Shown one piece after another: positions 10,559-49,230 of a stretch of DNA of 62,241 bases. The DNA is taken from positions 1 to 62,241 of the IMG/VR virus record IMGVR_UViG_3300031857_000175. The stretch is one strand, 5' to 3'. How positions within the stretch are numbered: the stretch's first letter is position 1; each line of letters opens with the position of its first letter. This stretch comes from a virus. The notes beneath the pieces were generated by a model, which made no database searches, was not told the origin of the DNA, and saw nothing but the letters and a program-made list of their open reading frames with translations. Both the position numbers and the translations under genes were made by a program.

Positions 10559-10563
10559 GTAAA

Positions 10564-11265
10564 ATGGAATTTGCTAATTACTTTTTCATCAGGGCTTTGG
10601 AGTACGGCTGGGAGGTCTTGAAGACCAAGGGCGACGAAACTTGGTCGAGGCTCTTCCCACGCTCCGTGCCTGAAATGGAGTGGAAGCGTGCGAGAGACAT
10701 GCTTCTAAAGACAGATATCCAATTCAGGCTGACCTACAGCGTAGGCATAACCAACGAGAACGCTAACGTCGTCTCGACCAGCTTGGACGGGCTCGTTCCG
10801 ATGGAGGGAAATCCGTACGCGATGGACCCGGAGGTCACGCAGGATTCTTGGACGATCGATGAGGGCGTAGTGAGCGTCTACATCATCACGTACAACGAAT
10901 TTCTGATGATGACTCTGTCTAACATCGTGCGCGCCATCGTGACCAGCCTCGTCGTTGACGGCTGGTTCGTCAAAGTAGGCTTTGACATGGTGAAGCGCGT
11001 CAAGTCTGAAGATCTTCGTCCGGAGGGTGGAATGCCTGAAAACGTGACGAAGTATATTAGACATCAGACTTGGGAATGCGCCATGACTACAAATCTTCCG
11101 CACATTGAGGGTCCTTTTGATTGGCCGATCAAACCTATCTTCGTGGCGGACTCATCTGTTGCAGCAAGTTCCATTTTGGACCCCACGACTGGAACAGAAT
11201 ATCAACTGGGTGGGACATATTTCGGCGGGGTTACCCCTGAACCGGACACTGACAAGGAAGGCTGA
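10564..11265 (+). CDS. Unrecognised protein immediately upstream of tail sheath
   Basis: A 233-residue protein with several aromatic-rich strands (SVYIITYNEFLMMTLSNIVR) and a central acidic segment. In myoviruses the gene just before the sheath is often the tail terminator or a neck protein, and the length here is compatible. No diagnostic motif was seen. It starts 5 bases after the previous gene, with GGGAG 8 bases upstream of the ATG, and ends 2 bases before the sheath gene, so these three genes are probably one transcription unit. Confidence 0.4.
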   Translation: MEFANYFFIRALEYGWEVLKTKGDETWSRLFPRSVPEMEWKRARDMLLKTDIQFRLTYSVGITNENANVVSTSLDGLVPMEGNPYAMDPEVTQDSWTIDEGVVSVYIITYNEFLMMTLSNIVRAIVTSLVVDGWFVKVGFDMVKRVKSEDLRPEGGMPENVTKYIRHQTWECAMTTNLPHIEGPFDWPIKPIFVADSSVAASSILDPTTGTEYQLGGTYFGGVTPEPDTDKEG

Positions 11266-11267
11266 TC

Positions 11268-32978: not shown

Positions 32979-33317
32979 ATGAGCGAGCTCACCACATTTA
33001 ACCGCCCCTTGAACTTCAAGGGGCTTCAGGTCACCGGGCCAATGCGCCCGAAGAACGGCGAGGTCGTGCTCGACGGTTCCAACACGGACTACGACCCGTC
33101 GCGGTTTTCGGCGCACGTTGTCCAGTGTGACGCGCCCTACACGATCGAGGTCCTCGGGCCTTCGCGCGTTTGGGCTTCTTACCCCGGGCAGGCCGGTGGT
33201 CTCAGCAACGAGATCGCGATTATTCGCGGTCGCTGGCTGGGCATCAAGATTCTCACTGAGGGCCAGGTTTGGTTCCAGTCCGACCGTCACGGCGACGCTT
33301 GGGCGGGCGTGTTTTAA
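32979..33317 (+). CDS. Small beta-rich protein at start of fibre locus
   Basis: 112 residues, start ATG with GGAGG upstream after a 67-base gap. Sequence is beta-rich with many Gly, Trp and Arg (GLSNEIAIIRGRWLGIKILT). Codon use is as restricted as in the capsid gene, so it is probably made in quantity and incorporated in the virion. Its place ahead of the beta-helix protein suggests a collar, fibre-base or decoration function. No family was recognised. Confidence 0.45.
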   Translation: MSELTTFNRPLNFKGLQVTGPMRPKNGEVVLDGSNTDYDPSRFSAHVVQCDAPYTIEVLGPSRVWASYPGQAGGLSNEIAIIRGRWLGIKILTEGQVWFQSDRHGDAWAGVF

Positions 33318-33326
33318 GGAGCTGCC

Positions 33327-34370
33327 ATGTACCCCGACGTTGTCACTGATCGTAAAAACTCGGATGTGTCAGAGCCCCTTACCGCCCAGCAGGCGGAGGT
33401 TCTCGACAAGCTCCTTAACCCCGCCGGAAGTCTCTTCCGCGTGGGTGGGCGCATCGCAAAGGCAGAGGCCACGCTTGCTGGCGCTCCCCTCATTGAGGGC
33501 AAGTCCGGCAACACCATCCTCATCACCAAGGAAGGTGGTGAGTATGCGAGCCTGCAGGACGCGATCGACGCCGCGGTCCCCGGCGACGTGATCGTCGTGG
33601 GTGCGGGCAACTGGGGTGACGTCGTGCTCAAGGGCGGCGTCAGCCTTATGGGCCTGCAGCCGCCCAAGGCCCTGCAGGTTGTCCTCAGCAGCCTGACCTT
33701 CGCACCTGACGAAGGCGACACCGCAGCAGACAACACGGTTTACGTGTCGAACCTGCTCATCAGCGGTGGTGGCAATGATACGCTGCTGGAGCTCGGCGGC
33801 AACGATCCCATCCGGGCTTACTTCAGCGGAGTGCGCGTCTACCGTGACGAGGCTCCCGCCACGACGGCCATGGTCGTGTGCGCGGGTGACGATGCAACCT
33901 CGACGATTGAGTTCGAGAACTGCCTCTTCACCCACGAGGGCGGTCAGGTCGCGTCCGCCCTCACGCTGCTGTCCACCTCAGTGCGTTACCTGAACTTGGT
34001 CGACTGCTCCTTTGCCAACGGCGGGCGCTCCCTCGACGTCACCGGTGGTGACCTCGTGGTGGCAGCCACCACGCGCTTTGAGACCGGCTCGACCGTCGCG
34101 GCCCTGCGCGTTGGTGCTAGCTGCACGCTGAGCCTCGGCAGTTGCTTGGTCACCAACTCGGGCACGAACTGCTCGGGTGTTGAGCTGGTTGCAGGCACGT
34201 CGACTCTCGTCGCGTCCAACACTGGCTTCAACGTGGCGGCAGGCACGGGCAAGGCCGTGCTCGCTACGGCTGGCGGAACGTTCCTCAAGGGCAACGTTGT
34301 GGCCAATTTTGGCAGCAACAGCTCGGTGTCCGGTGGCGTGACGCAGGTTCCACTGACTGCGGTCTCTTAA
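33327..34370 (+). CDS. Tail fibre with right-handed beta-helix (pectate-lyase-like) domain
   Basis: 347 residues. The first 45 form a small module (MYPDVVTDRKNSD ... LLNPAGSLF) that is shared with the neighbouring 71-residue protein and is probably a virion-anchoring or oligomerisation tag. The rest begins with the typical beta-helix opening EYASLQDAIDAAVPGDVIVV and continues with short repeated strands (IEFENCLFTHEGG, LNLVDCSFANGG, LSLGSCLVTNSG) spaced as in parallel beta-helices. Such phage proteins bind or cleave surface polysaccharide; no catalytic residues can be assigned here. Codons are highly biased, fitting a high-copy fibre. Confidence 0.65.
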   Translation: MYPDVVTDRKNSDVSEPLTAQQAEVLDKLLNPAGSLFRVGGRIAKAEATLAGAPLIEGKSGNTILITKEGGEYASLQDAIDAAVPGDVIVVGAGNWGDVVLKGGVSLMGLQPPKALQVVLSSLTFAPDEGDTAADNTVYVSNLLISGGGNDTLLELGGNDPIRAYFSGVRVYRDEAPATTAMVVCAGDDATSTIEFENCLFTHEGGQVASALTLLSTSVRYLNLVDCSFANGGRSLDVTGGDLVVAATTRFETGSTVAALRVGASCTLSLGSCLVTNSGTNCSGVELVAGTSTLVASNTGFNVAAGTGKAVLATAGGTFLKGNVVANFGSNSSVSGGVTQVPLTAVS

Positions 34371-34389
34371 TTTTTTGTAAGGAGTTTCT

Positions 34390-34605
34390 ATGTACCCCGA
34401 CGTTGTCACTGATCGTAAGAATTCCGACGCCTCCGTTCCCCTCACGGCCACGCAGGCGGACGTTCTCAGCAAGCTCCTCAACCCGGCGGGTACGCTTTTC
34501 GCCGTTGGCGAGCGCCTCGCGGCTCTTGAGGCCAAGGTTGCCGAGCTCGAGGCTGACCTCGCGGCTCACATGGCCGTCTCTGGTGGGGATGCGGCTCACC
34601 CCTGA
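34390..34605 (+). CDS. 71-residue anchor-module protein with coiled coil
   Basis: Residues 1-40 are a near copy of the N-terminus of the preceding beta-helix protein: the first 13 residues, MYPDVVTDRKNSD, are the same and the opening 20-odd bases are identical. Here the module is followed by a short heptad coiled coil (AVGERLAALEAKVAELEADL) instead of a beta-helix. The start has AAGGAG upstream. It may be a small fibre-base trimer that shares the same docking site, or a remnant left after loss of a receptor-binding domain. Strong codon bias suggests it is expressed. Confidence 0.65.
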   Translation: MYPDVVTDRKNSDASVPLTATQADVLSKLLNPAGTLFAVGERLAALEAKVAELEADLAAHMAVSGGDAAHP

Positions 34606-34629
34606 GTTCGTTTGAACCCATGAGATTGG

Positions 34630-34652
34630 ATGCCACGCTACCCGCGTGGCAT
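34630..34652 (+). other. Perfect 9-bp hairpin in fibre intergenic gap
   Basis: ATGCCACGC pairs with GCGTGGCAT around a TACCC loop, within the 79-base gap between two fibre genes. There is no T run after it, so it is not a standard terminator. It may be an RNA processing or stability element, or a weak terminator. Confidence 0.6.
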
Positions 34653-34684
34653 TCCTATATCCGCCACACGCCAAGCGAGGGATT

Positions 34685-35479
34685 ATGTCATCGCCTACTT
34701 CGACGATCCGCTTTGGGCGGTCCTACTACCCCTCGAAGCAGTTTGCTTCCGCCTCTGCTGAGATCGACCCCCACGAGTGGACGGGTACGATCGAGCCTGA
34801 TCAGATGGCGGTTTTCGGGCCTGGCGGAATTGGCGGGACCTGGGCGGAGTCCACGAATCCCTACGAAGACGGCGATCAGTACACCCCCTCTGGGTACACC
34901 TACCGCAACGTCGTCGTCCTGAACGTCTCTGACCCGTTCGCGGACAACTTCCTCTTCTTCGGGAAGAGCGCTCATGACGTGTACGACGGCCCTCGCCGGG
35001 CGATCGTGACGCCGCGTGGTCCTTGCTACTCGCAGGGCGAGTACGACCAGTTCATCGTCTACAACTACAGCGCCACCAATATCACGCTGAGTGTGCAGTG
35101 GGACCACGCCGGTACGCCCTCCTCGACCAACGCTGGGCACCCGGGCCACGGCCACGTCTCGATGGACGTCAGCGATTTTCTGATCGCGGGCGGCATCCAC
35201 GTTCTCTACCCTGCGTGGAAGCGGGCCCGCCAGATCACGGCGGTTCACCTCTACACGAAGTCCGGTGTCCCGGTCGCAGGGGGCGCCCTTGGCCTGCTCG
35301 TGAACAACTCCTTGGTTGGAGCTCCGATCACGATTTCGACCTTAGCGGCTGGTTACAGCACGCAGTCGGTTGGGCCTATCGACCTGACAATTGCTAGCAC
35401 CCTCCAAGTTGTCCTCGACGTACCGGCGCAACCCGCCGGTACCGACCTGATCGTCGAGCTCGAGTACGACTTCGCCTGA
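34685..35479 (+). CDS. Unrecognised fibre-locus protein, beta-sandwich type
   Basis: 264 residues from ATG 34685, chosen because GCGAGG lies 4 bases upstream; the frame is open 13 codons further but through the hairpin. Two beta-rich halves are visible, with VVLNVSDPFADNFLFFGKSA in the first and a C-terminal set of strands (GPIDLTIASTLQVVLDVPAQ ... LIVELEYDF). A His-rich loop (HPGHGHVSMDV) lies in the middle. Codon use is strongly biased. Likely a structural fibre or fibre-associated protein. Confidence 0.45.
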   Translation: MSSPTSTIRFGRSYYPSKQFASASAEIDPHEWTGTIEPDQMAVFGPGGIGGTWAESTNPYEDGDQYTPSGYTYRNVVVLNVSDPFADNFLFFGKSAHDVYDGPRRAIVTPRGPCYSQGEYDQFIVYNYSATNITLSVQWDHAGTPSSTNAGHPGHGHVSMDVSDFLIAGGIHVLYPAWKRARQITAVHLYTKSGVPVAGGALGLLVNNSLVGAPITISTLAAGYSTQSVGPIDLTIASTLQVVLDVPAQPAGTDLIVELEYDFA

Positions 35480-35487
35480 GGTGAGCC

Positions 35488-38400
35488 ATGTTTTTGCGCG
35501 GATGGCGGTGGCCTAGAAAACTTTGGTATTTTTCGGGCGGCATTCTTCCACTGAATGCCACGGTTACGCCTGTTGCAGCAGACGCTATCGGAACGTCCGT
35601 TGGTCGTCCGATGGTCGTCATCGACGACGGCCTCGTCCCTGAGGCCTTTGGGGCAATCGGAACCTCCGTAACGCCCGTCATAAGTATCATCGATACCTTT
35701 TCGCCGCAGACCTCTCCCGCCATCGGCACGTCTGCCTCTCCGACGGTACACGTCTCCGACGTCAGCGTTCCTGAGGTTTCTGACGCAGTAGGCGCACCCT
35801 CGGAGCTGACGGTTCACGTCTCTGACGTGGTCACCCCCGACGCCTCGGACGCAATTGGGTCTTCTGCTCAGGCTCAGGTCGTAGTTTCTGACACCTTCAC
35901 GCCTGACGTTGCCTTCGCGCTCGGCACAGTTTCGAACGTCTTTATCTCAGTCTCAGACTTCGTGGTGCCCGCAACAGCAGACGCCAAGGGTAGTGTGGCC
36001 TACCCGATCGTCATTATCGGCGATTGGATCACGCCCTCAAGCGAGCCCGCCGTAGGGACCGTTGCCTACGCCACGGTTCACGTCTCCGATTCGTTCGACA
36101 CTACCGTCGCAGACGCTATCGGCACCTCCGCCTTGGCTAGGGCCATCGTCGCAGTCTCGCCCGAGACCAGCGATGCCACCGGTACGGTGGCTGTGCCTCT
36201 GATTGCCCTTGCGGTTTCGCCCACCACTACAGCCGCTGTGGGGGCTTCGGGCGAGGAAGGTCTTTTCATCAACGTCACCCAGACGGTTGAGGGTACCCTG
36301 CTGTTCGCAGGGCCTACCCGCATCGTCTTGGGGGCGGCTGCCTTCGCGACCCCGGGCGAGTACGACCTCTTCCGGTACACACCAGGCTCGTTCCCCGGCG
36401 GCCAGGGTGCCCTCGACACGTACGTCACGATCGACACCTCTGCCGTCCCGAACTTCTTCGTCGCCGCCCTGACTGACGATCCTGCCACTGGGCGTGTGTT
36501 CCTGCGCCTGCTGCAGCGCTTGGTTCACGTCTCTGACAGCTTCACCCCTGCGACCTCGGCGGCCGTCGGAACCTCGGCAGATGCCTTGGTGGCCTCTGGT
36601 CTCTCCCCGCAGGCAAGCGACGCAGTCGGTACCGAAGCTACAACGCTGCCGAGCGTTGCCTACTCGCCCTTGGCTGCGGCAGCCCTCGGGACGGAATCCG
36701 TCACCACCGTACACGTCTCAGATGTCTTCCGACCTGAGGCGGCCCACGCTAGAGGAACAGAGTCTTACCCAGTCGTCATTATCGGCGATTGGATCACGCC
36801 CTCTAGCGAGTCTGCGGCCGGCACGTCTGCCAGCCCGACTGTTCACGTCTCTGACGCAGTTACGGTAGAGGTCTCCGACGCCGTCGGTACGGTATCTAAC
36901 ATTCAGATAGGCTCGGCCCTCGTGCCGGGCACGACAGACGCACTCGGCACCTCTACCTCGCCCACGGTGCACGTCTCTGACGTCTACGAGCCCGATGCGG
37001 CTGACGCAGTCGGCACGGTCTCGGACGCCCTTGTGGCGGCTTCCTTCGCGCCCACGGTGTCCGACGCCGTTGGCACGGCAGCCGGGGCAACCGCACACGT
37101 TTCGGATTCCGTAACGCCCGATGCGGTCAATGCCATCGGCACGAGCACTGATGCTAGCGTTGCGCTCGCTCCCACCCTTACGGCAGCTGACGCTTCGGGT
37201 ACGGCGGCCACGCCTGCGGTTCACGTCTCTGACGTGTTCCAGGTCACGACGGCCAACGCCGTAGGCACCGTTTCGTACCCAGCGGTCATCATAGGCGACG
37301 CAGTAACCCCCGAGAGCTACCCGGCGCTCGGCACTTCGGCAACGCCTTCTGTTCACGTCTCCGACGTGGTTACGCCCGATATTACCGACGCTGTCGGCGC
37401 GTCGGCGGATGCTCTGGTTGGAAGCGCGCTCAGTCCAAGCACGTCCGACGCGCTTGGAGTGGCGACTGATGCACTGGTAAGTCTGTTCTTCGTGCCGGAG
37501 GCGCTCGCCGCCGTCGGTACCTCGGCGGATGCTCTCGTGACGGTGTCGGATACCTTCGAGCCCACGGCTGAGAACGCTATCGGCACGAGCGCGAGCGTTT
37601 TCGCAGTTATCTCGTTTATTCCCGCCGTGCAGGATGCCCTCGGGACTGCTTCCGAGACCTCGGTCGTCGTGTCGGATAGCTTCACGCCGGCTGACGCTCA
37701 CGACGGCGTCGGAACGAGCTCTGACGCACAGGTTTCGATCTCTGAGGTCTTCACGCCCACCGTTTCCGACGCGATCGGTACGTCGGAGGACGCAACCTCA
37801 GTCACCTCGAAGACTTTCACGGTCTCCGCTTCCGACGCACTCGGTACTTCTGAATCGGCCATCCCAATGGTCGACGATGCGTTCTCGCCCTCGACTACCG
37901 CAGCCGTCGGTACGTCTGTCGACGCCGTAATCTCGATCTCCGACTCCGCGACCCCCGAGACCTCCGACGCAGTCGGCACCGTTTCTGACACGACGGTTTC
38001 TGTCTCGGTGCGAGTCACCCCCGGAGCTACCGACGCAGAGGGTATGTTTGAGGACGCCATCGTGGCGGTCTCTGACAGCTTCACTCCTGAAGCCCCGAAC
38101 GCCGTCGGAACGGCCTCAGAGGTCACAGCTCACGTTTCCGACAGAGTTACCCCCGAGATCTCTGACGCCATTGGCACCTCGGCCGCAGCGAATATTTCGA
38201 TCTCCAAGATTTACACCCCGAGCACGATGGATGCTAAGGGTACCGCGACCTACCCGGTGGTCATCATCGGCGACTGGGTCACGCCTTCCAGCGAGTCTGC
38301 CCTCGGAACGTCCTCGACTCCGACCGTCCACGTTTCCGACTTCGTCGTGCCTGAAGTCGCCGATGCCCTCGGGACCTCTTCGACGTCCGTGGCGGTGGTC

Positions 38401-40536
38401 TCGTTTATCCCGAGTGTCTCCGACGCGCTTGGTACGGAAGCCACCCCCGGCGTTGGTATCAGCACAGCGTTCACGCCTGTCGCCGTTGACGCCGTTGGGG
38501 CCTCGGGCGAGGAAGGCACCTTCGTCAACGTCACCCAGACGGTTGAGGGGGCGCTGGTCTTCGTAGGCCCGACGCGGATCGTACTCAACGCTACGGCGTT
38601 CGCGACCCCCGGCAGCTACGTCCTCTTCGACTACGGGTCTTTCTCTGGCGGCCAAGCCAGCCTCGACACGTACGTCACGATCGACACGTCCGCCGTGCCG
38701 AACCTGTTCGCCGCAGCCCTGACGGACGACACTGCGAACACGCAAGTTGTGCTGCACCTCCTCCAGCGCCTCGTCTATGTCTCTGACGTGGTGACGCCCG
38801 ACGCGGTCGACGCTGTTGGGACGGCGGCCAACGCACTGGTTGCGGTAGCCACTGTCCCAAGCTCCTCTGATGCAGACGGTACGTCGGCAAGCGCCTTCGT
38901 TGTGGTGGGCGTCGAGCCCACGGCACAGGACGCCGCCGGAACCTCGGCGAACGCCCTCGTCGCTCTGAGCGTTGCTCCGAGCACGTCGAACGCCCTCGGA
39001 ACCGTGGCTGACGCAGTGCCTGCTACGAGCGTGGCCTTGGTACCTAGTGTCAGTGACGCCGTGGGTACGGAGGCCACTGCGGTCGTCGTCATTGTCAGTG
39101 ATCGCTTCACCCCGACGGCTTTCGCAGCACTCGGTACCAGCACAAACGTGCTCGTTGCTGTCAGCGATAGCTCCACCCCGGATGCTCCGGACGCCGTTGG
39201 AACTGTGGCCACTCCTGCGGTCTACACGAGCGTTGCTCCCGGCACGAGTGCCGCGCTTGGCACCAGCGAGCCTGCGCTTATCGCGGTCAGCAGCGCAGCT
39301 ACTCCGCCTGCGTCTGACGCGCTCGGCACCAGCGCGAGCGCTAGCGTTGTTGTGAGCGCCAGCTTTATTCCGGGCGTCGCGGACGCCGTTGGAACTGCAG
39401 CCATCCCCGAGACCTTCCTGAGCGCCACTCCTAGTACAAGCGCAGCGCTTGGTACGAGCGAGGACGTGGTTGTAGCTATTGGCAGCGTTGTCACGCCGGC
39501 GACGAACAACGCCCTCGGTACGGTGGCTGCGGCACAGGTGGCCATGGCGTACGTGCCTGCGGCCACCAACGCCCTTGGCACGGCGGTCGACGCCATTGCC
39601 GCCACCACCAAGGTGGTGACGCCGGGCGCGACGGACGCCGTCGGCACGAGCGAGGCGGCACTGGTCGCCATCACCGCCTCGGTGACGCCGGTAGCCTCGG
39701 ATGCGGTGGGCACAGTGGCTGACGCCGTCGTTGCCTCGGCCTACACACCGAGTGCGGTGAACGCGCTTGGTACAGTGGCCGACGCGCCTGTCCTCACCGC
39801 TTACGCCCCGGTGGCTACGAACGCGGTGGGTACTAGCGAAGACGCGATCGCCGTGGTGGCCACAGACAAGATCGTCACAGCCACTGCGACGAACGCGCTC
39901 GGTACTGTGGCGAACGCCGCAGTGAGCCTCGCCTTCACGCCGACAGCGGTTGACGGCATCGGTACCTCTGAGGACGCCATTCCGTATCAGTTCATCCAAG
40001 TCTCTTGGAATGGTCCTGACCTGACACTGGCTGGCGGGTCGTGGTCGTGGTCGCTCATGGGTGACAGCTACGAAGGCGCGCAGTACGTCGACGGGGCGCT
40101 TGACTTCACCGGTGCGACGACGGTCTACCTTGACGAGAGCGTGTACGCCAAGGGTGGCAACTACGTCTTGTTTGAGTACGGCAGTTTCCCCGGTGGGCAG
40201 GCGGACCTCGACGCATACCTGACAGTCGACGCGTCTGACCTCGCGCTTTCATTCGTCGAGGTTGTCCAGGACAAGCCGCACAAGTCGCACGTCGTCATCA
40301 AGATCAAGAGCAACCCGACCAACGGCAAGCAGTTCGTCGACGGTGACTTGACCTTCAGCGGCGCGACGACGCTCTACTTGGACCCTGACCTCTACGCGAC
40401 CGATGGCACTTACGAGCTGTTCCAGGTGACGGGCACCGTGACAGGACTTGCCAACGTCACATGCGTCAGCGAGGCCGGCCTGTTCTGCGGCGCTCCGTTC
40501 CTTGACGGCAACCTCGTCAAAGTCACTATCACCTGA
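35488..40536 (+). CDS. Giant repeat fibre/adhesin (about 61 units of 20-22 residues)
   Basis: A 1682-residue protein beginning with a short basic/aromatic segment (MFLRGWRWPRKLWYF), possibly an attachment tail. Most of the rest is a tandem array with consensus roughly P-x-x-SDA-x-GTS-x-x-A-x-V-x-VSD-x-F-T. Units are 22 residues when SD is present and 20 when it is missing. Two copies of a globular domain of about 100 residues (NVTQTVEG-L-F-GPTRIVL ... LLQRLV-VSD) interrupt the array after units 11 and 42. Two degenerate versions of the same domain (VDGALDFTGATTVYLDE and VDGDLTFSGATTLYLDP) end the protein. It is probably a long rod with lectin-like knobs. No signal peptide or catalytic motif is visible. 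Confidence 0.75.
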   Translation: MFLRGWRWPRKLWYFSGGILPLNATVTPVAADAIGTSVGRPMVVIDDGLVPEAFGAIGTSVTPVISIIDTFSPQTSPAIGTSASPTVHVSDVSVPEVSDAVGAPSELTVHVSDVVTPDASDAIGSSAQAQVVVSDTFTPDVAFALGTVSNVFISVSDFVVPATADAKGSVAYPIVIIGDWITPSSEPAVGTVAYATVHVSDSFDTTVADAIGTSALARAIVAVSPETSDATGTVAVPLIALAVSPTTTAAVGASGEEGLFINVTQTVEGTLLFAGPTRIVLGAAAFATPGEYDLFRYTPGSFPGGQGALDTYVTIDTSAVPNFFVAALTDDPATGRVFLRLLQRLVHVSDSFTPATSAAVGTSADALVASGLSPQASDAVGTEATTLPSVAYSPLAAAALGTESVTTVHVSDVFRPEAAHARGTESYPVVIIGDWITPSSESAAGTSASPTVHVSDAVTVEVSDAVGTVSNIQIGSALVPGTTDALGTSTSPTVHVSDVYEPDAADAVGTVSDALVAASFAPTVSDAVGTAAGATAHVSDSVTPDAVNAIGTSTDASVALAPTLTAADASGTAATPAVHVSDVFQVTTANAVGTVSYPAVIIGDAVTPESYPALGTSATPSVHVSDVVTPDITDAVGASADALVGSALSPSTSDALGVATDALVSLFFVPEALAAVGTSADALVTVSDTFEPTAENAIGTSASVFAVISFIPAVQDALGTASETSVVVSDSFTPADAHDGVGTSSDAQVSISEVFTPTVSDAIGTSEDATSVTSKTFTVSASDALGTSESAIPMVDDAFSPSTTAAVGTSVDAVISISDSATPETSDAVGTVSDTTVSVSVRVTPGATDAEGMFEDAIVAVSDSFTPEAPNAVGTASEVTAHVSDRVTPEISDAIGTSAAANISISKIYTPSTMDAKGTATYPVVIIGDWVTPSSESALGTSSTPTVHVSDFVVPEVADALGTSSTSVAVVSFIPSVSDALGTEATPGVGISTAFTPVAVDAVGASGEEGTFVNVTQTVEGALVFVGPTRIVLNATAFATPGSYVLFDYGSFSGGQASLDTYVTIDTSAVPNLFAAALTDDTANTQVVLHLLQRLVYVSDVVTPDAVDAVGTAANALVAVATVPSSSDADGTSASAFVVVGVEPTAQDAAGTSANALVALSVAPSTSNALGTVADAVPATSVALVPSVSDAVGTEATAVVVIVSDRFTPTAFAALGTSTNVLVAVSDSSTPDAPDAVGTVATPAVYTSVAPGTSAALGTSEPALIAVSSAATPPASDALGTSASASVVVSASFIPGVADAVGTAAIPETFLSATPSTSAALGTSEDVVVAIGSVVTPATNNALGTVAAAQVAMAYVPAATNALGTAVDAIAATTKVVTPGATDAVGTSEAALVAITASVTPVASDAVGTVADAVVASAYTPSAVNALGTVADAPVLTAYAPVATNAVGTSEDAIAVVATDKIVTATATNALGTVANAAVSLAFTPTAVDGIGTSEDAIPYQFIQVSWNGPDLTLAGGSWSWSLMGDSYEGAQYVDGALDFTGATTVYLDESVYAKGGNYVLFEYGSFPGGQADLDAYLTVDASDLALSFVEVVQDKPHKSHVVIKIKSNPTNGKQFVDGDLTFSGATTLYLDPDLYATDGTYELFQVTGTVTGLANVTCVSEAGLFCGAPFLDGNLVKVTIT
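36001..36530 (+). repeat. Large block duplication, copy 1
   Basis: This block contains a VIIGDW unit, three or four repeat units and the GASGEEG...QRLV globular domain. A matching block lies about 2250 bases downstream (38251-38785). Conserved order and similar spacing point to duplication of a whole segment, not independent growth of single repeats. Confidence 0.7.
38251..38785 (+). repeat. Large block duplication, copy 2
   Basis: Counterpart of 36001-36530: VIIGDW unit at the start, then repeat units, then the globular domain starting at 38497 (copy 1 at 36241, an offset of 2256 bases). Differences between copies are mainly at third codon positions and in the surface loop after TPG. Confidence 0.7.
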
Positions 40537-40547
40537 GAGGCTGAGTC

Positions 40548-43100
40548 ATGGTTGCGATTACCAAGAACGCTACAGGGACAACGCTTACCACCGCTAGCAA
40601 CTGGACCCCTGCTCAGGTTCCAACGACTGCCGACGATGTCACATGGAATCTGGCGTCTGTTAGCGGCACGTGTACTGGTAGCTTCGGTGCGAACACCATC
40701 ACGTTTAATGGTGCCGCGAGCGGCACTCCGGTCACTCACACCGGCACACTCACGCTAATTAATGGGTACACGTTCACCTCTACGAACAACTCTCAGTGGA
40801 ACGTCGGTGGTACGACTGGTGTACTAGCAGTTGGCGCTAACGACCAAACGTGGGTACTGAACTCCTCTGCTTGGTCATCGGTTGCGTTCACGGGCTCAAG
40901 TGCCTCTGTTATGACTGGCACAGCCACTGTCAACGTGCAGAAACTGACCGGCGGTGCTGGCTCTGCTGACGTTTACGCCACCCGGAGTGTTGCAAACTTC
41001 ACCGGCACATTCATTGCAAACTCAGGTGTCTCGTTTAGCGCCGCCTTCGCTACCGCGACAGGGGCGTGGTCGGGCGCTAACTTTCAGTTTGAGACTGGCT
41101 CAACCTGCGGACCAGCCATCAACAATGCTTACTTTGGGGGCGTTGGAAAAACCCTTACGGTGACCGGTGACATGCGCTTTGGAAATAGCGCGTACACAGG
41201 ATTTAATGTAAATCCAAATATAGTTCTTTCCGGTGCTACCACGAGGACGCTGACGATCCATGGTGTTACCTCACTAGGTGGTGCAATCAGTTCTGCCACC
41301 GCTGGCACTGGCCTATCAGTCACCATGCCTAACGCTGGGAGCACGCGCCTTTCTGTTACAAACATGTACCTGTATGTGAGCGGCTCCAGTAGCGGCATTT
41401 CTGGCCCCTGTACGGTAAACAGCGGCAGGCTCATCATAACACCAGCCACTACGGCTGCTAGGTACACGCCCACCGCTATTTCAGTCGCATCCAATGCGAT
41501 TTTTGAATATTTTCCAATGTCCAACACGGACTTTACTTTTCCGTGCGCGCCAACTGGCACTGGGTTCATTGCTATTATTGGCAACCACACAGCTGGGGGT
41601 GGTGTAACATTCAGTGCAGGGCAGCTATCCTCATTTGGCGGTATTGTTCGCTGCTACCAAGCAGCATCAAATACTGCTTATTTAGCCCCACGTATCCGAC
41701 TTTCTGAGCTTCCTGCAGGGTTGGACTGGTTTGCGCAGGCAGACGGCGCGGTCGGTTCAATGACGGGGGAGATGACCTATCTAGGCACTGCCGCCACGTA
41801 TGCCACCAACCTAACTGTGGATAGCGTCGTAAACACGAACACGGCCACGCTCACAGGCGGCACCTACTCGCTCATCGTGCCCGATACCTCTGGCGCCATT
41901 AACGTCACGGGCACGGTGCAGCGCCTGAACACGGCAGGAACCGCGTCGGCTCGAATGTCCTTGACGCTCGGCGGTACGAACACCGGCAACAACACGCTGT
42001 CGGGCGACATCAGCGAAGTCGGCACGAACAGCGCCATCCTTGGCATCACCAAGGTTGGCGCCGGGCGCTGGGTTTTGAGCGGCGCCAACAGCAGCCACAC
42101 GGGCATCCATACCGTCAGCGCGGGCACGCTGTCGGCACAGTCGGCGAAGGCCTTGGGCAGTGCCACGTCGGCGGGTGGCGTCACTATCAGCGGGACGGGC
42201 AAGCTTGAACTGTCTGGGGGCATCACGCTCAACAAGTCGGCGACGGCCTTTACCATCCACCAAACATCGCCAATCACCAGCGTCGGAGACAACACGGTTC
42301 AGACGGCGGGCATTACGCTCGGCGGAACGACGACGTTTGACGTCACGACCGGCAACCGTCTTGCTATCGCGAACAGCGGCGCGATTACCGACGGCGCCAG
42401 CACCTTCGGCCTGACCAAGACGGGCGACGGCGAGCTTGCCCTTGCGGCCTTCGCCAACACCTACGACGGCGCGGTCACAGTCACGGCGGGCACGCTGGCC
42501 ATCGGCTCCGTCGGGGCGCTCGGCACTGGCGTTGCGACCGTTCAGTTGACGGGAAATCTCAAGTACACCGGCACAGGCGAGACCCTGTCCAGGGCGACGC
42601 TGCTCAACGGTTCGGCGCCGAGCTTTGAAGCCTCAGGCTCCGGAGCGCTGACGGTGTCTAACCTGTCAACAAGCGTGTCCACGAAGACACTGACTCTGAA
42701 AGGCAGTAACACGGGCGCCAACACGATCACGTCAAGCCTGACCGACAACAGCGGAATCCTTTCGCTGGCCAAGGAGGACGCGGGCAAGTGGGTTGTCACG
42801 ATCCGGACCTACAGCGGGTCCACGGCCGTCAACGCTGGCACGCTGCGGTGCGAGGCCACGAACAGCGCGACGACGACGGGCGCTGTGACCATCGGGGCAA
42901 GCGGCACGGTCGAGCTCGTCACGAATACGCTGGCCAGCTCGGGCACTGGCAACGGCGAGGTCCTTGGCACGGGCAACGTGACGTGCAACGGCGGCATCAT
43001 CAAGACGCGCGGCGGGACCACGCAGAAGGGTCAAGTGCGCTACGGTGGCAACCTGACCTTCGGCGCAGGGTCGTCTCTCTACATCGGCGCAGCAGCCTGA
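40548..43100 (+). CDS. Autotransporter-like beta-solenoid adhesin, paralogue 1
   Basis: 850 residues. N-terminal motif ATGTTLTTASNWTPAQVPTT followed by DDV is of the W--G/A-x-P-x-x-D/GD type also present in the two paralogues downstream. The C-terminal half contains passenger-associated repeats: GRWVLSGANSSHTGIHTVSA, then GELALAAFANTYDGAVTV, then KWVVTIRTYSGSTAVNAGTL. These occur in bacterial autotransporters and build right-handed beta-solenoids. The end KGQVRYGGNLTFGAGSSLYI matches paralogue 2. No signal peptide or autotransporter barrel is present, so this is a virion fibre rather than a secreted host protein. Confidence 0.65.
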   Translation: MVAITKNATGTTLTTASNWTPAQVPTTADDVTWNLASVSGTCTGSFGANTITFNGAASGTPVTHTGTLTLINGYTFTSTNNSQWNVGGTTGVLAVGANDQTWVLNSSAWSSVAFTGSSASVMTGTATVNVQKLTGGAGSADVYATRSVANFTGTFIANSGVSFSAAFATATGAWSGANFQFETGSTCGPAINNAYFGGVGKTLTVTGDMRFGNSAYTGFNVNPNIVLSGATTRTLTIHGVTSLGGAISSATAGTGLSVTMPNAGSTRLSVTNMYLYVSGSSSGISGPCTVNSGRLIITPATTAARYTPTAISVASNAIFEYFPMSNTDFTFPCAPTGTGFIAIIGNHTAGGGVTFSAGQLSSFGGIVRCYQAASNTAYLAPRIRLSELPAGLDWFAQADGAVGSMTGEMTYLGTAATYATNLTVDSVVNTNTATLTGGTYSLIVPDTSGAINVTGTVQRLNTAGTASARMSLTLGGTNTGNNTLSGDISEVGTNSAILGITKVGAGRWVLSGANSSHTGIHTVSAGTLSAQSAKALGSATSAGGVTISGTGKLELSGGITLNKSATAFTIHQTSPITSVGDNTVQTAGITLGGTTTFDVTTGNRLAIANSGAITDGASTFGLTKTGDGELALAAFANTYDGAVTVTAGTLAIGSVGALGTGVATVQLTGNLKYTGTGETLSRATLLNGSAPSFEASGSGALTVSNLSTSVSTKTLTLKGSNTGANTITSSLTDNSGILSLAKEDAGKWVVTIRTYSGSTAVNAGTLRCEATNSATTTGAVTIGASGTVELVTNTLASSGTGNGEVLGTGNVTCNGGIIKTRGGTTQKGQVRYGGNLTFGAGSSLYIGAAA
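43005..43100 (+). repeat. 3' end homologous to paralogue 2 (copy 1)
   Basis: The last about 95 bases encode IKTRGGTTQKGQVRYGGNLT and the following FGAG. They are closely similar at DNA level to 45624-45725, much more so than the N-terminal parts of the two genes. This suggests duplication with gene conversion or recombination at the 3' ends. Confidence 0.7.
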
Positions 43101-43112
43101 GGAGGATGAGCC

Positions 43113-45725
43113 ATGGTCATCAAGGCGGCAACGGGCACAAACCTCGCACTGGGTGCTTCGTGGGAAGGCGGGGTCGCACCTACGGCGGGGGACACCGCAG
43201 AGTGGTACGCTGCCGCACCGATCTCGCTTGGGCCAGGGCTGACAGGCAATCTGTCTATCTATGCGATTTATCAAGAGGGTGCCTCCTCCAACATCGCGCA
43301 CAGCGCCGGCACCATCACATTCTCCGACGGTGGCGGCTTCACGCAGGTCAGCACGAACACGCGCGTGTGGACTGAAAGCGGCACGTGGGCCATTGGCAGT
43401 GGCACCGTGTCATTTACGATCGCACGCTCGACCCCCAACACCACGGTCCTTGACACATCCGCAGCCAGCGGGCTCACGGGCGACAGCGCCAGCGTAATCT
43501 CGGTGTTCAACGGGTCTGATTTTGCAGATCCGATGTACGCCATTTGGACTGTACGCGGAGCTAACACTGGATTTTTGGGCCAGATCTACCTCAATCCCAC
43601 GTCAAATCTTCACGTGACTGGCACCGGCGTATTGGCAAATGCGTCTGTAGTCACGGATGCTTTTGGGGAGCCTTGGATCACGGCAGGTCAGGCTAGCGCC
43701 TCGCTCGGTACGCTAGGTACCACGACTTTGGAAGTCGGTGCCGACCTCAAGCTGGGTTGGTCTACCCGCACCCTGACCCTCAACAGCGCGACTTCGTTCA
43801 CAGGCTCGGTCCACAATGTCACGCTTGCGGATAATGTAACGTTCGCTGGGCCCCTCGGGGGGACTCCTGATTTTGTGAACTTTGCCAGCGTAGGTGCGAC
43901 TTGGCTTGCGCTGACGCTGGACAACACCGCAAACACCATCAGCGGTTCGCTCGACATCGGTAATTATGTTATCACTTACCTAAACTGCGCGTCAGGGTTT
44001 AACCTTCCAAACGTATCCGAGTTCACGATCACAGGCAACCTACGCCTCGCCGGGTCGGGAGGCAGTGGCTTTGTAGCGCCCCATACTTTCACAGGGGTGT
44101 CATTCTATGGGGATGGCGCGGTCGAAGTAGTTTTCAGCGCGACAAACCTTGTCTCTTTTCCAGCAGGCTCTCTTAGCGGGTTGACGGGCATCAACGAGCC
44201 CGCGCTCGGCTATGCGACGGCGGTACTAGCCCGCTCTGGGCTAGTACTTTGGACCAGTCCTTATACCGTAGCTTCGCGCCAATCCTACGTAGATGTTAAG
44301 GACCTGCCTAGCCGCGTGACCTTTCAGTGCACAGCGTCTGTTAACGCTACTTCCACGGGACGCCTTTACTACACCGGCCCAGGTACTTCGTACCCGAACA
44401 CGCGCATTGACATGGTCCTGCGCGATAACACCTATCCTGCCGTAAATGTTAATGAGATCTACGCCAACAACGCGTCCGGCATTGTGGAGATTGGCGAAGG
44501 CGTCAAGCGCCACGGGGACAGCGCGACGCAGACGCTGACCCTGCGTGGAACGGGCGCGGGGCGCATCAGCGGCACTATTAATCCCAACGCACGCGGAGCT
44601 CTCAATCTCTCCAAGACAGACCCCGGCACTTGGTACCTAAGTGCGAACAACACCAGCACCGGCACCACCACGGTCTCGCAAGGAATCTTGCAGCCCGAGT
44701 TGTCTACGTGTCTCGGTACGACGGGTGCTGTCACGGTCAACAACACCGGTACTATGGTACTAGGGAACGGCTTTACGCTGAGCAAGGGCTCGGCCGCGTT
44801 CACCTTCGCCAAGACCGACGGCACCGCGGCAATCACGCTGCCGACCAATGCTCAAGCCACGCTTGCCACAGCGGGTATAACGCTTGGTGCAGTCCTGCGC
44901 CTGGGTTTGGGTGCAGGCTCCAAGCTGACGATCGCGAACACTGGCGCCATTACCGACGGTGCGAGTTCTTTCGGCATTCACGCCGACTGCTCGTCGCTTG
45001 TTTCACGTGCCGAACTCGTACTGGAGCCTGCGTCCAACACGTTCGACGGCACGATCACTGTCGAAGCTGCCACGCTGACCGTCTATACCCTGAACAATAT
45101 CGGCGTGGCCGGGATTTTTGGCACCGGCAGCACCCCGCTTAGTTTTACGCACGGCACCCTGAAGTTCTCCGGCAACGCTCCTAACTCGACAAATCGCGGT
45201 ATTACCTCGTACACGTCCGGATGTACGCTCGAAGCGGCGGGTACAGCTGCCGCGACGTTCAGTGGCCCCATGACCAAAGTCGAAGGTACTGGTAGCTCCT
45301 ACACACTGACCATTACGGGCACGAGCACTGCCGCGAACACGCTTGCCTCCACGCTTGCGAACGCGACGGGTATCACCACGGCGCTGACCAAGTCAGGCAC
45401 AGGATATTGGCGTGCTACGGGGGCGCTGTCCTACACCGGGGCGACAACTGTCTCAACAGGCACGCTGCGGGTCGAGCGCCCCGACGGTAACACCATGGCC
45501 AGCACCGTGACCGTAGCCAGCACCGCCACCGTCGAACTGGCCACGGACACACTGCCGAGCTCTGGTGCTACCGCTGGGCGTGTGCTGGGCACTGGCTCAG
45601 TCATCGTCAACGGCGGCACCATCAAGACGCGCGGCGGCAGTAGCGTGCAGAAGGGACAAGCGCGCTATGGTGGCAACCTGACCTTCGGTGCAGGGTCAAG
45701 GCTTGAAATCGGCACAGCAGCTTAA
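43113..45725 (+). CDS. Autotransporter-like beta-solenoid adhesin, paralogue 2
   Basis: 870 residues, 12 bases after paralogue 1 with a strong GGAGG site. Start motif NLALGASWEGGVAPTAGDTA. C-terminal passenger-type repeats (GTWYLSANNTSTGTTTVSQG, then YWRATGALSYTGATTVSTGT) precede IKTRGG and RYGGNLTFGAGSRLEIGTAA. The N-terminal 500 residues differ strongly from paralogue 1 while the C-terminus is similar, the pattern expected when the receptor-binding part diversifies. It may form homotrimers or mixed fibres with the paralogues; this is not shown. Confidence 0.65.
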   Translation: MVIKAATGTNLALGASWEGGVAPTAGDTAEWYAAAPISLGPGLTGNLSIYAIYQEGASSNIAHSAGTITFSDGGGFTQVSTNTRVWTESGTWAIGSGTVSFTIARSTPNTTVLDTSAASGLTGDSASVISVFNGSDFADPMYAIWTVRGANTGFLGQIYLNPTSNLHVTGTGVLANASVVTDAFGEPWITAGQASASLGTLGTTTLEVGADLKLGWSTRTLTLNSATSFTGSVHNVTLADNVTFAGPLGGTPDFVNFASVGATWLALTLDNTANTISGSLDIGNYVITYLNCASGFNLPNVSEFTITGNLRLAGSGGSGFVAPHTFTGVSFYGDGAVEVVFSATNLVSFPAGSLSGLTGINEPALGYATAVLARSGLVLWTSPYTVASRQSYVDVKDLPSRVTFQCTASVNATSTGRLYYTGPGTSYPNTRIDMVLRDNTYPAVNVNEIYANNASGIVEIGEGVKRHGDSATQTLTLRGTGAGRISGTINPNARGALNLSKTDPGTWYLSANNTSTGTTTVSQGILQPELSTCLGTTGAVTVNNTGTMVLGNGFTLSKGSAAFTFAKTDGTAAITLPTNAQATLATAGITLGAVLRLGLGAGSKLTIANTGAITDGASSFGIHADCSSLVSRAELVLEPASNTFDGTITVEAATLTVYTLNNIGVAGIFGTGSTPLSFTHGTLKFSGNAPNSTNRGITSYTSGCTLEAAGTAAATFSGPMTKVEGTGSSYTLTITGTSTAANTLASTLANATGITTALTKSGTGYWRATGALSYTGATTVSTGTLRVERPDGNTMASTVTVASTATVELATDTLPSSGATAGRVLGTGSVIVNGGTIKTRGGSSVQKGQARYGGNLTFGAGSRLEIGTAA
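45624..45725 (+). repeat. 3' end homologous to paralogue 1 (copy 2)
   Basis: Counterpart of 43005-43100. Long identical stretches occur around the bases encoding GGNLTFGAG. The shared tract could serve as a recombination site for swapping adhesin ends. Confidence 0.7.
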
Positions 45726-45737
45726 AAGGATTGAACA

Positions 45738-46076
45738 ATGGCACTGATTCGTGACTTTACTGTCGAAGGCGTGAACTACCCCGAGGCGTACTCGCGCATC
45801 CTCGTGACGCGTTGCGACAAGGATTCGGCCTACGTGTTTGTCTTGACCTACGCCAGCTTCGACGACCGCATGGCGGGAGCCAATCCCGTCTGGACGGAAG
45901 AGCATGCGACGCAGCTCGCGACCGTGTCGGCGGATGTGTTCCCGGCCAGCTACGCGTTCTTGAAGACGCTGCCGGAGTTCGCCGGCGCAATCGACCACGA
46001 CAACCCGCCCGAGGCGCCTGCACCTGATGTCATCGACACGACGGCGGATGTGGTCAGCAACGACTTCGTCAACTGA
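45738..46076 (+). CDS. Small unrecognised protein in adhesin block
   Basis: 112 residues, AAAGGA upstream of ATG. It opens with strands (LIRDFTVEGVNYPEAYSRIL, VTRCDKDSAYVFVLTYAS), then a helix and an acidic C-terminal tail (VIDTTADVVSNDF). It lies between two adhesin paralogues. Proteins of this size at such sites are often fibre-attachment or fibre-assembly factors, but there is no direct evidence here. Confidence 0.4.
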   Translation: MALIRDFTVEGVNYPEAYSRILVTRCDKDSAYVFVLTYASFDDRMAGANPVWTEEHATQLATVSADVFPASYAFLKTLPEFAGAIDHDNPPEAPAPDVIDTTADVVSNDFVN

Positions 46077-46100: not shown

Positions 46101-46514
46101 ATGTCAATCACGGCCAAGTGGTACCCCTCTGCCGCGCAGCAGATGTTCCTGGGCAACCTGAACAGCACAACTAGTTCGTTCAAGATTGCCCTGCTCAACA
46201 GCAGCGGCAGCTACACGGCGTCGCACACCGCGTGGTCTGACGTGAGCGGCTTCGAGATTGCAGCAAGCGGTGGGTACACGGCAGGCGGCGAGGCGACTAC
46301 AATCACGCCCACTGCCAATAGCACCGCCTCCTACTTCACGCCGTCTGCAGTTTTGTGGACTAGTGCTACCTTCTCGTTCAACAACGCAGTCATCTACGAC
46401 ACGGTCTCTGGTAAACTGATGATGCACCTAGCGTTTATTACGACGCAAAGCCCTGTGGCGCAGGACTACCAGATCAACGTGCCCAGCACCGCGCCTTCTG
46501 CGACCCCGGCGTAA
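46101..46514 (+). CDS. Small beta-rich virion protein, possible fold paralogue of 48751-49230
   Basis: 137 residues. Pattern: WYPSAAQQMFLGNLN, then FKIALLNSSGSYTASHTAWS, a GGYTAGGEATTI centre, then AVLWTSATFSFNNAVIYDT and DYQINVPS. The order of elements parallels the 159-residue protein at 48751 (FYPKVFEKVLSG ... VKLLLLGDYATY ... NAIWGPDDGGAATFTTGHAIL). Members of this general family are common near phage tail-fibre genes. Role: structural, otherwise unknown. Confidence 0.45.
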   Translation: MSITAKWYPSAAQQMFLGNLNSTTSSFKIALLNSSGSYTASHTAWSDVSGFEIAASGGYTAGGEATTITPTANSTASYFTPSAVLWTSATFSFNNAVIYDTVSGKLMMHLAFITTQSPVAQDYQINVPSTAPSATPA

Positions 46515-46628: not shown

Positions 46629-48632
46629 ATGGCAGACCGGTATTGGAGACTCGCAAGCGGTGGCGTTTGGACTTCAACGGCTAACTGGGCTGCGGTCTCA
46701 GGTGGGGTCGGAGGTTTTACGCCGCCAGGTACCGGCGACAACGCGTTCATCGCCCAGAACATTACCGCGACCGGCACGATCACCGGGATTGGCAGTAACG
46801 TCTCCACGATGCCGGCGTACCTTCGCATCGACGACTTCCCTACGTCGAGCCACGCTTGGATCATCGGAGCTGGCAGTGAATCAATCGTAGTCGCAAACGA
46901 CTTTACGTTTGACCTGCCCGGCGCAGTCGTCTCGGCTACACCTCACAGATGGAGCCCGCGCCTTAACGGAGCAGGGCGCACCATGACCAAGATAGGCTTG
47001 GGCTGGGTCGTGCTCAATGCGCCGAGCGTGGCCTCTCAGCTGGCTTTGATCGTGGTGCGAGATGGTCCGTTTGGCATGTTTCAGGGTTTCGGCGGCACGC
47101 TTGAGATGGGCCACGGGACAATAGCACCCACGGCCAACCTGATATTTGATACCGCTAACTCAACAACTGTCGTCTCCGCGCCGGTTAGGTTCAGGCGAAA
47201 CACGACGATTCAGAACACGGCTGCGACTTTCAAGACGGTCAACTTCACTCAGCCATGCACGTTTGAGCCAATCTCAGGGACGCTGGGGATTGCTCACGCG
47301 AACGGCACCTCGGTCACCTTTAGCGGCGGGTGTAGCTTCAAGGGCAACACTTCAATCGGGTATACCGCAGGAAGCTCGTTCTTTTTCTCCGGAGCCGTTG
47401 ACTTTACAAGCGCAAGCCCGTTCACTTTTGCGAACACAGGTAACGCGCTCACGATTTCTGGAAGCACGACTTTCAACACAAACGTGACGCTTTTTGGCGG
47501 GGGCGGCAGCCAGTTTTTTACCGGCTCGGTTGCACTTGGTGACGCCAGGTCACTAACTATCCAAAGCAACTCCGTCTCGATGTCTGGGACCGTGTCCGGC
47601 ACTGGTGGGATTACGACCTCGGCGACTCTTGGAAAGACTTACGGCCTGTTCCTTACTGGTAACTCATCAGGCCTTTCTGGGCCTTGCACAATCAATTCTG
47701 GGTCTTTGCAGGTTGCCGCAACAAACCGGTATGAGCCGACAGCACTCAACGTTGCGGGCTCCACCTCACGCTTCTTTTACACGTCCGGGTCGGCTGACTT
47801 TAACTTCCCAGTCAGCCCTACCGGGGTTGGTGGTGTCGTCATTCGGGGCAACTTTGCAGGGTCAGGGGTCACCTTTCCGGCGTCAGGTCCCGGGAGTGTT
47901 CAAGGGTTCGCCGGCTCGCTTCAGGCAATCGCCCTTTCAAACGCCACAAACAATAACTCCAAGCTCGTCACTCATCACTTGCCTCAGCAGTTTTGGTTGA
48001 GCGGCGCTGCATTTGCCACCGGCTTTTCTCTGACGCCTTCAATCACTTATGTCGGCGCAGGCGAGACGAGGAACACAGACGTCATCATTGACTCAGAGAA
48101 CAACGCTCAAACGGCTGTCTTGTCGTCGGGGGTGTACACCCTTGCGTCGTCTGGGGCTGACGCCATCGTCCTGACTGGGGGCGTTCAGCGCACTAACAGC
48201 GGGGTGAACGCGTCAGCTCGGATGACCCTCACGCTTGCTGGCACGAACACAGACGCTAACACCATCTCCGGTCCGGTTACTGAAGTTGGCACGAATAGCG
48301 CGACGCTGGGGTTGGTCAAGAATGGCACCGGGTACTGGGCCCTGTCCGGGGCCTTGAGTCACACGGGCCCTACCACGGTGGAGCAGGGCAGCCTCCGCCT
48401 TGAGGCGATGAGCCACGACAACACGAACACGGGCAACATCTCCGTCGCCACGGGCGCCGTGCTTGAACTGGTCACCTCGGCGGCGACCCCGCGCCGAGTC
48501 ACGGGCACAGGCAACGTCACCGTTAACGGTACGCTGCGCGCGGGTGCCTCGGGCACCGGCACGGGAACAGCCCGCTACGGTGGTGGGCTGACCTTTAACA
48601 CCAACTCGGTACTCGAACTTGGTGCTGCCTAA
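46629..48632 (+). CDS. Autotransporter-like beta-solenoid adhesin, paralogue 3
   Basis: 667 residues with AGGAGG upstream. The opening YWRLASGGVWTSTANWAAVS then PPGTGDNAFI is the same W...W...P-GD type as in the other two, and C-terminal repeats GYWALSGALSHTGPTTVEQG and TARYGGGLTFNTNSVLELGA match their ends at lower identity. Its middle (SGGCSFKGNTSIGYTAGSSF ... FTGSVALGDARSLTIQSNSV) is a run of short beta strands. It is the shortest and most diverged of the three. Confidence 0.65.
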   Translation: MADRYWRLASGGVWTSTANWAAVSGGVGGFTPPGTGDNAFIAQNITATGTITGIGSNVSTMPAYLRIDDFPTSSHAWIIGAGSESIVVANDFTFDLPGAVVSATPHRWSPRLNGAGRTMTKIGLGWVVLNAPSVASQLALIVVRDGPFGMFQGFGGTLEMGHGTIAPTANLIFDTANSTTVVSAPVRFRRNTTIQNTAATFKTVNFTQPCTFEPISGTLGIAHANGTSVTFSGGCSFKGNTSIGYTAGSSFFFSGAVDFTSASPFTFANTGNALTISGSTTFNTNVTLFGGGGSQFFTGSVALGDARSLTIQSNSVSMSGTVSGTGGITTSATLGKTYGLFLTGNSSGLSGPCTINSGSLQVAATNRYEPTALNVAGSTSRFFYTSGSADFNFPVSPTGVGGVVIRGNFAGSGVTFPASGPGSVQGFAGSLQAIALSNATNNNSKLVTHHLPQQFWLSGAAFATGFSLTPSITYVGAGETRNTDVIIDSENNAQTAVLSSGVYTLASSGADAIVLTGGVQRTNSGVNASARMTLTLAGTNTDANTISGPVTEVGTNSATLGLVKNGTGYWALSGALSHTGPTTVEQGSLRLEAMSHDNTNTGNISVATGAVLELVTSAATPRRVTGTGNVTVNGTLRAGASGTGTGTARYGGGLTFNTNSVLELGAA

Positions 48633-48750: not shown

Positions 48751-49230
48751 ATGGCCTCTTCGTTCTACCCCAAGGTTTTTGAGAAGGTCCTCTCTGGCGA
48801 GCTCGACCTGTCGGGCGGCGCTGGCTCTGACACCGTCAAGCTTCTTCTGCTCGGCGACTACGCCACGTACCCCCTCGACGTCACCCACGAGTTCGTTTCG
48901 AACCTCTCGGGTGAGCTTGTCGACGGCGCTGGCGGCGTCATCAACTACGCCCGCAAGACCATCCCGGTCACCCTCTCGTACAACAGCGAGGCTGGCCTCG
49001 AGGGTTGCGACCTCAACTTCGCGCTGACCACCAACGCCATCTGGGGTCCGGACGACGGCGGCGCTGCCACGTTCACCACGGGCCACGCGATCCTCTTCGT
49101 GGACAAGGGCGGCGCTGACTCGGCCAACCCGCTGCTCTACTACTTCGACCTGTCGGCCAACCAGGTCGTCAGCTCGGGTACCTTCGAGCTCCGCAATCCG
49201 ACCACGGCGCCGCGCGTCCGCCGCGCGTAA
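48751..49230 (+). CDS. Abundant small virion protein (unnamed)
   Basis: 159 residues with TAGGAG upstream and a terminator just after, so it can be expressed as a separate unit. It is beta-rich (VKLLLLGDYATYPLDVTHEF ... INYARKTIPVTLSYNSEAGL) with a basic C-terminal tail (TTAPRVRRA). Codon use is as restricted as in the capsid gene, which suggests one of the more abundant virion proteins, such as a decoration, collar or fibre-base protein. The order of structural elements resembles the protein at 46101. No name can be given. Confidence 0.55.
   Translation: MASSFYPKVFEKVLSGELDLSGGAGSDTVKLLLLGDYATYPLDVTHEFVSNLSGELVDGAGGVINYARKTIPVTLSYNSEAGLEGCDLNFALTTNAIWGPDDGGAATFTTGHAILFVDKGGADSANPLLYYFDLSANQVVSSGTFELRNPTTAPRVRRA

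Follow-up and report, generated by a model that had tools for sequence, protein, structure and literature searches.

A Repeat Protein in a Phage Tail Module as a Probable Long Fibre Subunit with an Exchangeable Tip

Introduction

Short sequence repeats are a known building material of viral fibres. In the triple beta-spiral shafts of adenovirus and reovirus, the fibre shaft consists of short repeats and ends in an exchangeable head. Tail proteins made of short repeats are also known in phages, among them the mycobacteriophage proteins of PHROG 13352 (prophiGD08-3 gp66, Raela gp96, and McProf gp72), in which tandem units of 20–23 residues share an A-[VF]-G-T-P core and unit length switches by 2–3 residues, and the hypothetical protein CDS0201 of Phage C48C1 (3347 aa; L019:1-10044), in which a very long array of short repeats lies beside the tail genes. 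Repeats of the autotransporter-type beta-strand class (PATR, TIGR02601) are longer, at about 30 residues. Moreover, it has already been described that phages of different types exchange host-recognition modules, and the Alteromonas phages A5, V22, and P24, which are morphologically distinct, have in common a small protein and a fibre that is best conserved in its C-terminal part (PMC10579305).

The phage protein analysed here, with a shaft of repeats of 20–22 residues (shaft A) and a C-terminal tip, resembles each of these systems only in part. Its units share length, core, and length switching with PHROG 13352, although the core itself was used to find those arrays, and the mycobacteriophage proteins have a different consensus (GIPSAEAFGTP..), in arrays of several to ~10 units that are attached to other domains. 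The array of C48C1 is built of units of roughly 10 residues (Y/F-x-G-x-Y-S/T-R), rich in Y/F and R, and has no homology to shaft A, while the repeat pattern of the triple beta-spiral, compared by sequence pattern alone, is also unlike it. The PATR repeats are represented by neighbouring genes and not by shaft A itself. Finally, whereas the Alteromonas module shares a fibre and its chaperone (DUF4376; PMC10579305), here a C-terminal tip is transferred to a different shaft along with a PATR protein and a 112-aa protein, and no DUF4376 or repeat-array relationship to that module was found. The shaft A consensus and the arrangement of shafts and tips seem to be new.

Genomic Setting of the Repeat Protein

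The window, that is, the whole stretch of DNA analysed, is an IMG/VR virus record of 62,241 bases that carries the ORF of the repeat protein on the + strand. Its recognizable phage genes encode a portal, an SU10-type major capsid protein, a tail sheath, baseplate J, sheath-initiator-like proteins, DNA polymerase A, and an amidase. As judged by this gene content, the virus is contractile-tailed, and its hosts are bacteria. Cultured phages are distant, the best match to baseplate J, from Thermus phages, showing 29% identity across half of the protein. The sheath, sheath-initiator-like, and baseplate J genes lie upstream of the repeat-protein gene and the amidase endolysin lies downstream, which places it within the tail module, as is expected of the tail-fibre class. 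A tRNA-Phe called by ARAGORN inside the tail sheath gene (11984-12078, - strand) is probably a false positive.

Table 1. Coordinates of the repeat protein, its parts, and the adjoining genes in the window.
Feature	Position	Strand	Basis or remark
Three genes preceding the fibre gene	32979..35479	+	95-99% aa identical to 3300008459_000053 (also sliding DNA identity)
Repeat protein, 1682 aa, proposed fibre subunit	35488..40536	+	complete ORF; 92% aa identical orthologue
N-terminal 34 residues, including partial first unit	35488..35589	+	nearly unchanged in orthologue
Shaft A block 1, 10 units, residues 35-251	35590..36240	+	
Unit split by inserted domain D1, residues 252-360 (D1 about 253-345)	36241..36567	+	
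Shaft A block 2, 30 units, residues 361-1003	36568..38496	+	
Unit split by inserted domain D2, residues 1004-1110 (D2 about 1004-1098)	38497..38817	+	
Shaft A block 3, 18 units, residues 1111-1491	38818..39960	+	
Relic shaft B-type unit (SWNGPDLTLAGGSWSW..) at shaft-tip junction	40003..40062	+	shaft B HMM
Tip 1, two D-like domain copies, exchangeable C-terminus	40027..40540	+	89.7% identical over 514 nt to 3300034102_002172
PATR (autotransporter-type beta-strand repeat) protein, 850 aa	40548..43100	+	PF12951 E 2e-17, TIGR02601 E 2e-16
Second PATR protein, 870 aa	43113..45725	+	PATR profile matches
112-aa protein accompanying tip 1	45738..46076	+	phrog_18037

Architecture of the Repeat Protein

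The ORF of the repeat protein (Table 1) is preceded by a Shine-Dalgarno-like AGGTGA at 35479-35484, 4 bases before the ATG. A preliminary description from the sequence had placed an array of about 61 repeats at 35560-39984, with the cores A-x-GTS and VSD-x-F-TP and the loss of an SD pair in the shorter units, and these features are borne out. The array was measured at 35590-39960, an HMM derived from the units detects 61 copies in the protein, and the unit consensus is GTsAdAlVavsdafTPsasDAv, the 20-residue units lacking the two residues at the S-D columns. When the array is cut at the A-x-G-T core, 58 whole units are obtained (34 of 22 residues, 20 of 20, 3 of 23, and 1 of 24), in blocks of 10, 30, and 18, and 2 more units are each split by a domain of ~90 residues. 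Two parts of that description have to be corrected, since the 20- and 22-residue units were said to alternate and are instead irregularly mixed along the array, together with the units of 23 and 24 residues, and since the protein, said to be nearly all one array, is interrupted twice by the ~90-residue domain and ends in a separate tip of ~180 residues.

The periodicity is evident in the residue autocorrelation, which peaks at lags 22 (0.26), 42 (0.196), 44 (0.191), 64 (0.187), and 20 (0.18), whereas in 500 shuffles the highest value at any lag was 0.143. Identity between units averages 36%, and the G/T/A/P positions are invariant in the block alignment. No long DNA tandem array was detected in the repeat gene by TRF, so that a recent tandem expansion of shaft A was rejected, and self-comparison revealed older multi-unit duplications that are 68-80% identical (for example, residues 172-200/427-455, 421-456/916-951, and 408-466/578-636). 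The array is, thus, a diverged one with older multi-unit duplications. The two inserted domains, D1 and D2, are 77% identical in amino acids and 74% in DNA, show 43% amino acid identity to the tip, and have D-like sequence counterparts that appear twice more in the last ~180 residues. Long antisense ORFs of up to 627 aa, for example at 38116-39999 (- strand), lie beneath the repeat gene and show weak self-similarity in six-frame comparison; the repeats and the codon composition are likely to have produced them incidentally.

The repeat protein has no sequence match in Pfam, NCBIfam, PHROG, or the PDB chains, in agreement with the earlier statement that no named family has this consensus, and none in the phage GenBank and plasmid collections; no profile of a known fibre family matches it either. 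The specific unit DNA pattern RTNWSNGAYN(7)CNCCN(10)RAYGCNNTNGGNAC, which matches only 6 units of the window and would miss more diverged relatives, was scanned over all IMG/VR and matched only one other phage contig, 3300008459_000053, and one further site (L157), a chance occurrence with stop codons around it and no array.

Conservation of Shaft A in the Orthologue

Contig 3300008459_000053 is the only other phage in IMG/VR in which the shaft A repeat was found, and it encodes an orthologue that is 92% identical in amino acids, with an overall dN/dS of 0.36. Unit number, spacing, and positions are identical in both proteins, and the difference begins at about residue 1500. In the shaft A segments, dN/dS is 0.13-0.51, which indicates that the shaft sequence is under purifying selection, and dS is 0.04-0.16 in the shaft versus 0.61 in the tip. 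The tip of this relative, also carried on shaft A, is 64% identical to that of the window.

Both genomes are mosaic with respect to each other. The replication genes are 98-100% identical, the capsid is 99% identical in amino acids, and the fibre region is 92-99% identical, whereas the tail and baseplate genes are only about 33-70% identical (baseplate J 70%, other tail proteins about 33-60%). Since the fibre genes are so much more similar than baseplate J and the other tail genes, the fibre module moves as a block.

Exchange of Tips and Shafts among Phages

A search of IMG/VR with the insert domain D led to contig 3300034102_002172, in which a protein of 929 aa consists of about 37 units, each 20 residues long, that follow another consensus, W/Y-x-G-P-D-x-A-L-D-G-G-T-F-T-A (shaft B), and then of a tip nearly identical to that of the window. 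The DNA match begins at window position 40027 and extends beyond the stop codon, and upstream of this position no similarity between both contigs was found within the gene. A search with the 929-aa protein led in turn to contig 3300032220_000857, whose fibre (8001-12395) carries the same shaft B, 96% identical in amino acids over 750 columns without gaps, and then a different tip of ~690 residues with DUF5122 beta-propeller repeats (tip 2). In a whole-contig comparison, both shaft B phages are 94% identical in DNA on either side of a replaced block that comprises the tip, a PATR protein, and the 112-aa protein, and in 3300034102_002172 this block resembles window positions 40027-46021. Homologues of the window's sheath, portal, capsid, and baseplate J proteins were not found in either of the two contigs, both of which are partial records, and 3300034102_002172 encodes its own terminase, portal, and tape-measure-like protein. 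In bacterial genomes, searches with the insert domain and the shaft B protein gave nothing that could be confirmed.

Four combinations are therefore represented, namely, shaft A with tip 1, shaft A with the 64% identical tip, shaft B with tip 1, and shaft B with the DUF5122 propeller, and the C-terminus is exchanged while the N-terminal part is kept, as in fibres and receptor-binding proteins. These comparisons show that recombination joins one tip to different shafts and different tips to one shaft. Moreover, the shaft B HMM finds one stretch at the shaft-tip junction both in the window protein (E 3.6e-5) and in its orthologue (8.8e-5), and two independent assemblies therefore preserve, in this relic unit, a trace of a former attachment of tip 1 to a shaft of type B. 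All four contigs are metagenomic assemblies, with one genome per contig type, and could contain chimaeras, although the relic unit occurs in two separate assemblies. A homology between the N-termini (PRKL..) of the shaft A and shaft B proteins was rejected, as 386 of 2000 shuffles reach the score. The suggestion in the preliminary description that the length could vary between isolates is not supported by the two available pairs, as the unit count is equal within both the shaft A pair and the shaft B pair.

The neighbouring genes partly share the history of the tip. The C-terminal part of the 850-aa PATR protein (41946-43100) is 88% identical in nucleotides to 3300034102_002172 and travels with the tip. 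Homologues of the 112-aa protein are 95% identical beside tip 1 in 3300034102_002172 and 78% identical in 3300008459_000053, and no match was found in 3300032220_000857, the sibling with tip 2, a distribution that makes this protein a candidate accessory or assembly protein. A third PATR protein is encoded at 46629-48632, and the set of PATR genes is not the same in the window and in its relatives. Two small phrog_644 proteins (46101-46514 and 48751-49230) flank this third PATR gene, and in each of the two shaft B phages a 55% identical homologue of the first of them follows the fibre cassette.

Interpretation of the Shaft and the Tip

The repeat protein is probably a tail-associated subunit of a long fibre, whose shaft is made of the repeats and whose exchangeable tip most likely makes contact with the host. 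The assignment as a phage fibre, already made in the preliminary description, is supported indirectly by where the gene lies in the tail region and, most of all, by the exchange of shafts and tips among the four phage contigs; by analogy, the minor-tail annotation of the mycobacteriophage repeats of similar length (type II) also counts in its favour. In such a fibre, the short N-terminus, the proposed attachment end, would join the protein to the virion, about 60 repeats of 20-22 residues would form the elongated shaft, the two inserted domains might be knobs along it, and the last ~180 residues would be the tip. The whole would be a virion component in the form of an elongated, probably trimeric, beta-rich rod that would bind its receptor through the tip. 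Selection would hold the number of shaft units, while recombination replaces the tip together with the neighbouring genes. Two results count against this reading, namely, that no profile of a known fibre family matches the protein and that the AlphaFold2 monomer of the shaft has low confidence.

The architecture of the shaft could be different, and a doubtful but still sizeable possibility is that, as in the PATR proteins encoded next to it, one chain forms a beta-solenoid by itself, with one coil per unit, instead of an intertwined trimer. A length of 20-22 residues suits one coil, the loss of two residues keeps the strand phase, and PATR genes adjoin the repeat gene. The AlphaFold2 monomer of 8 shaft A units, which sets short strands regularly in each unit, would also agree with it; however, the model, from an alignment of 12 rows, has a pLDDT of 37 and a pTM of 0.32, at which a fold search is meaningless, and solenoids usually model better than this. 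Furthermore, the PATR profile has no match in the shaft A array. The tip shows a resemblance to PATR/TIGR02601 that stays below threshold (13.1 bits, cut-off 19.85, E 0.063). The AlphaFold2 model of tip 1 is all-beta (pLDDT 75.6), and a fold search with it in the PDB and BFVD gave no match at E<=0.001. Both architectures predict different dimensions, since a triple beta-spiral advances about 13 Å per unit, with a shaft near 80 nm expected, and a solenoid about 4.8 Å per coil, with a shaft near 30 nm.

It is somewhat less likely that shaft A belongs, as a divergent member, to a broad class of phage tail repeats that have units of 20-23 residues and share an A-[hydrophobic]-G-T core, with phrog_13352 and the TGVxATGAVGTV arrays of marine phages as its representatives. 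A looser pattern of three spaced A-x-G-T motifs retrieved 120 contigs, many with arrays of two other repeat types, and one of these, type II (GIPSAEAFGTP), belongs to PHROG 13352, minor tail protein, and is present in about 50 mycobacteriophage records; tblastn with a GIPSAEAFGTP test query gave no match, and the natural examples come from the pattern scan. Core and unit lengths are equal, and length switching by 2-3 residues also occurs in the mycobacteriophage proteins. Nevertheless, the core served as the search motif for these arrays and is therefore not independent evidence, and neither the HMM nor the profile tests with permuted columns supported a homology of shaft A to PHROG 13352 or to the TGVxATGAVGTV arrays. 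The shaft A HMM does not match those arrays, 29 of 60 permuted-column controls reach the score against the type I profile, and the weak hhalign score against type II (9.2, over 4 columns only) is reached by 4 of 60.

A role outside the tail, as a head fibre or decoration or as a non-virion protein acting at surfaces, is distinctly improbable. By the definition of their family, PATR repeats are elsewhere characteristic of proteins that bacteria secrete, which would fit such a role, but the gene lies in the tail module and the tip is exchanged with the tail module of an unrelated phage. Least probable of all is that the array serves as a linker of low complexity that is mostly disordered and lacks a regular fold, since the abundance of A, V, T, S, and D and the low AlphaFold2 confidence that would suit it are opposed by strict unit spacing, the invariant positions, and the absence of unit gain or loss at the dN/dS of the shaft segments.

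Modularity of the Proposed Fibre

With the assignment as a tail fibre, the comparisons suggest a mixing of stalks and host-gripping tips among such viruses. A more tentative extension, which is possible but has less than an even chance of being right, would be that unrelated phages of different tail type share cassettes of tip, PATR protein, and 112-aa protein, which could be fused to unrelated repeat shafts with similar unit lengths (20-22 residues), that the shafts are generic, interchangeable spacers, that the shaft-tip border is a site of recombination, and that the shaft represents a new fold family. The locus is, in any case, a natural experiment in fibre modularity, in which one shaft occurs with two tips and one tip on two shafts, with junctions defined at the sequence level, and in which, in the available cases, tips change while unit number stays fixed. 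It makes testable whether unrelated short-repeat shafts are interchangeable spacers and whether the tips alone carry host specificity, and it adds a repeat sequence that is absent from Pfam, NCBIfam, and PHROGs.

Arrays of the TGVSATG kind are encountered in other viral sequences as well. A 1777-aa viral protein (L111:1536-6866, - strand) consists largely of 22-residue TGVSATGxxGxxTV repeats, and a dozen further viral contigs, L137, L138, and L040 among them, contain similar arrays, often followed by NVWGxID..QTPNW segments.
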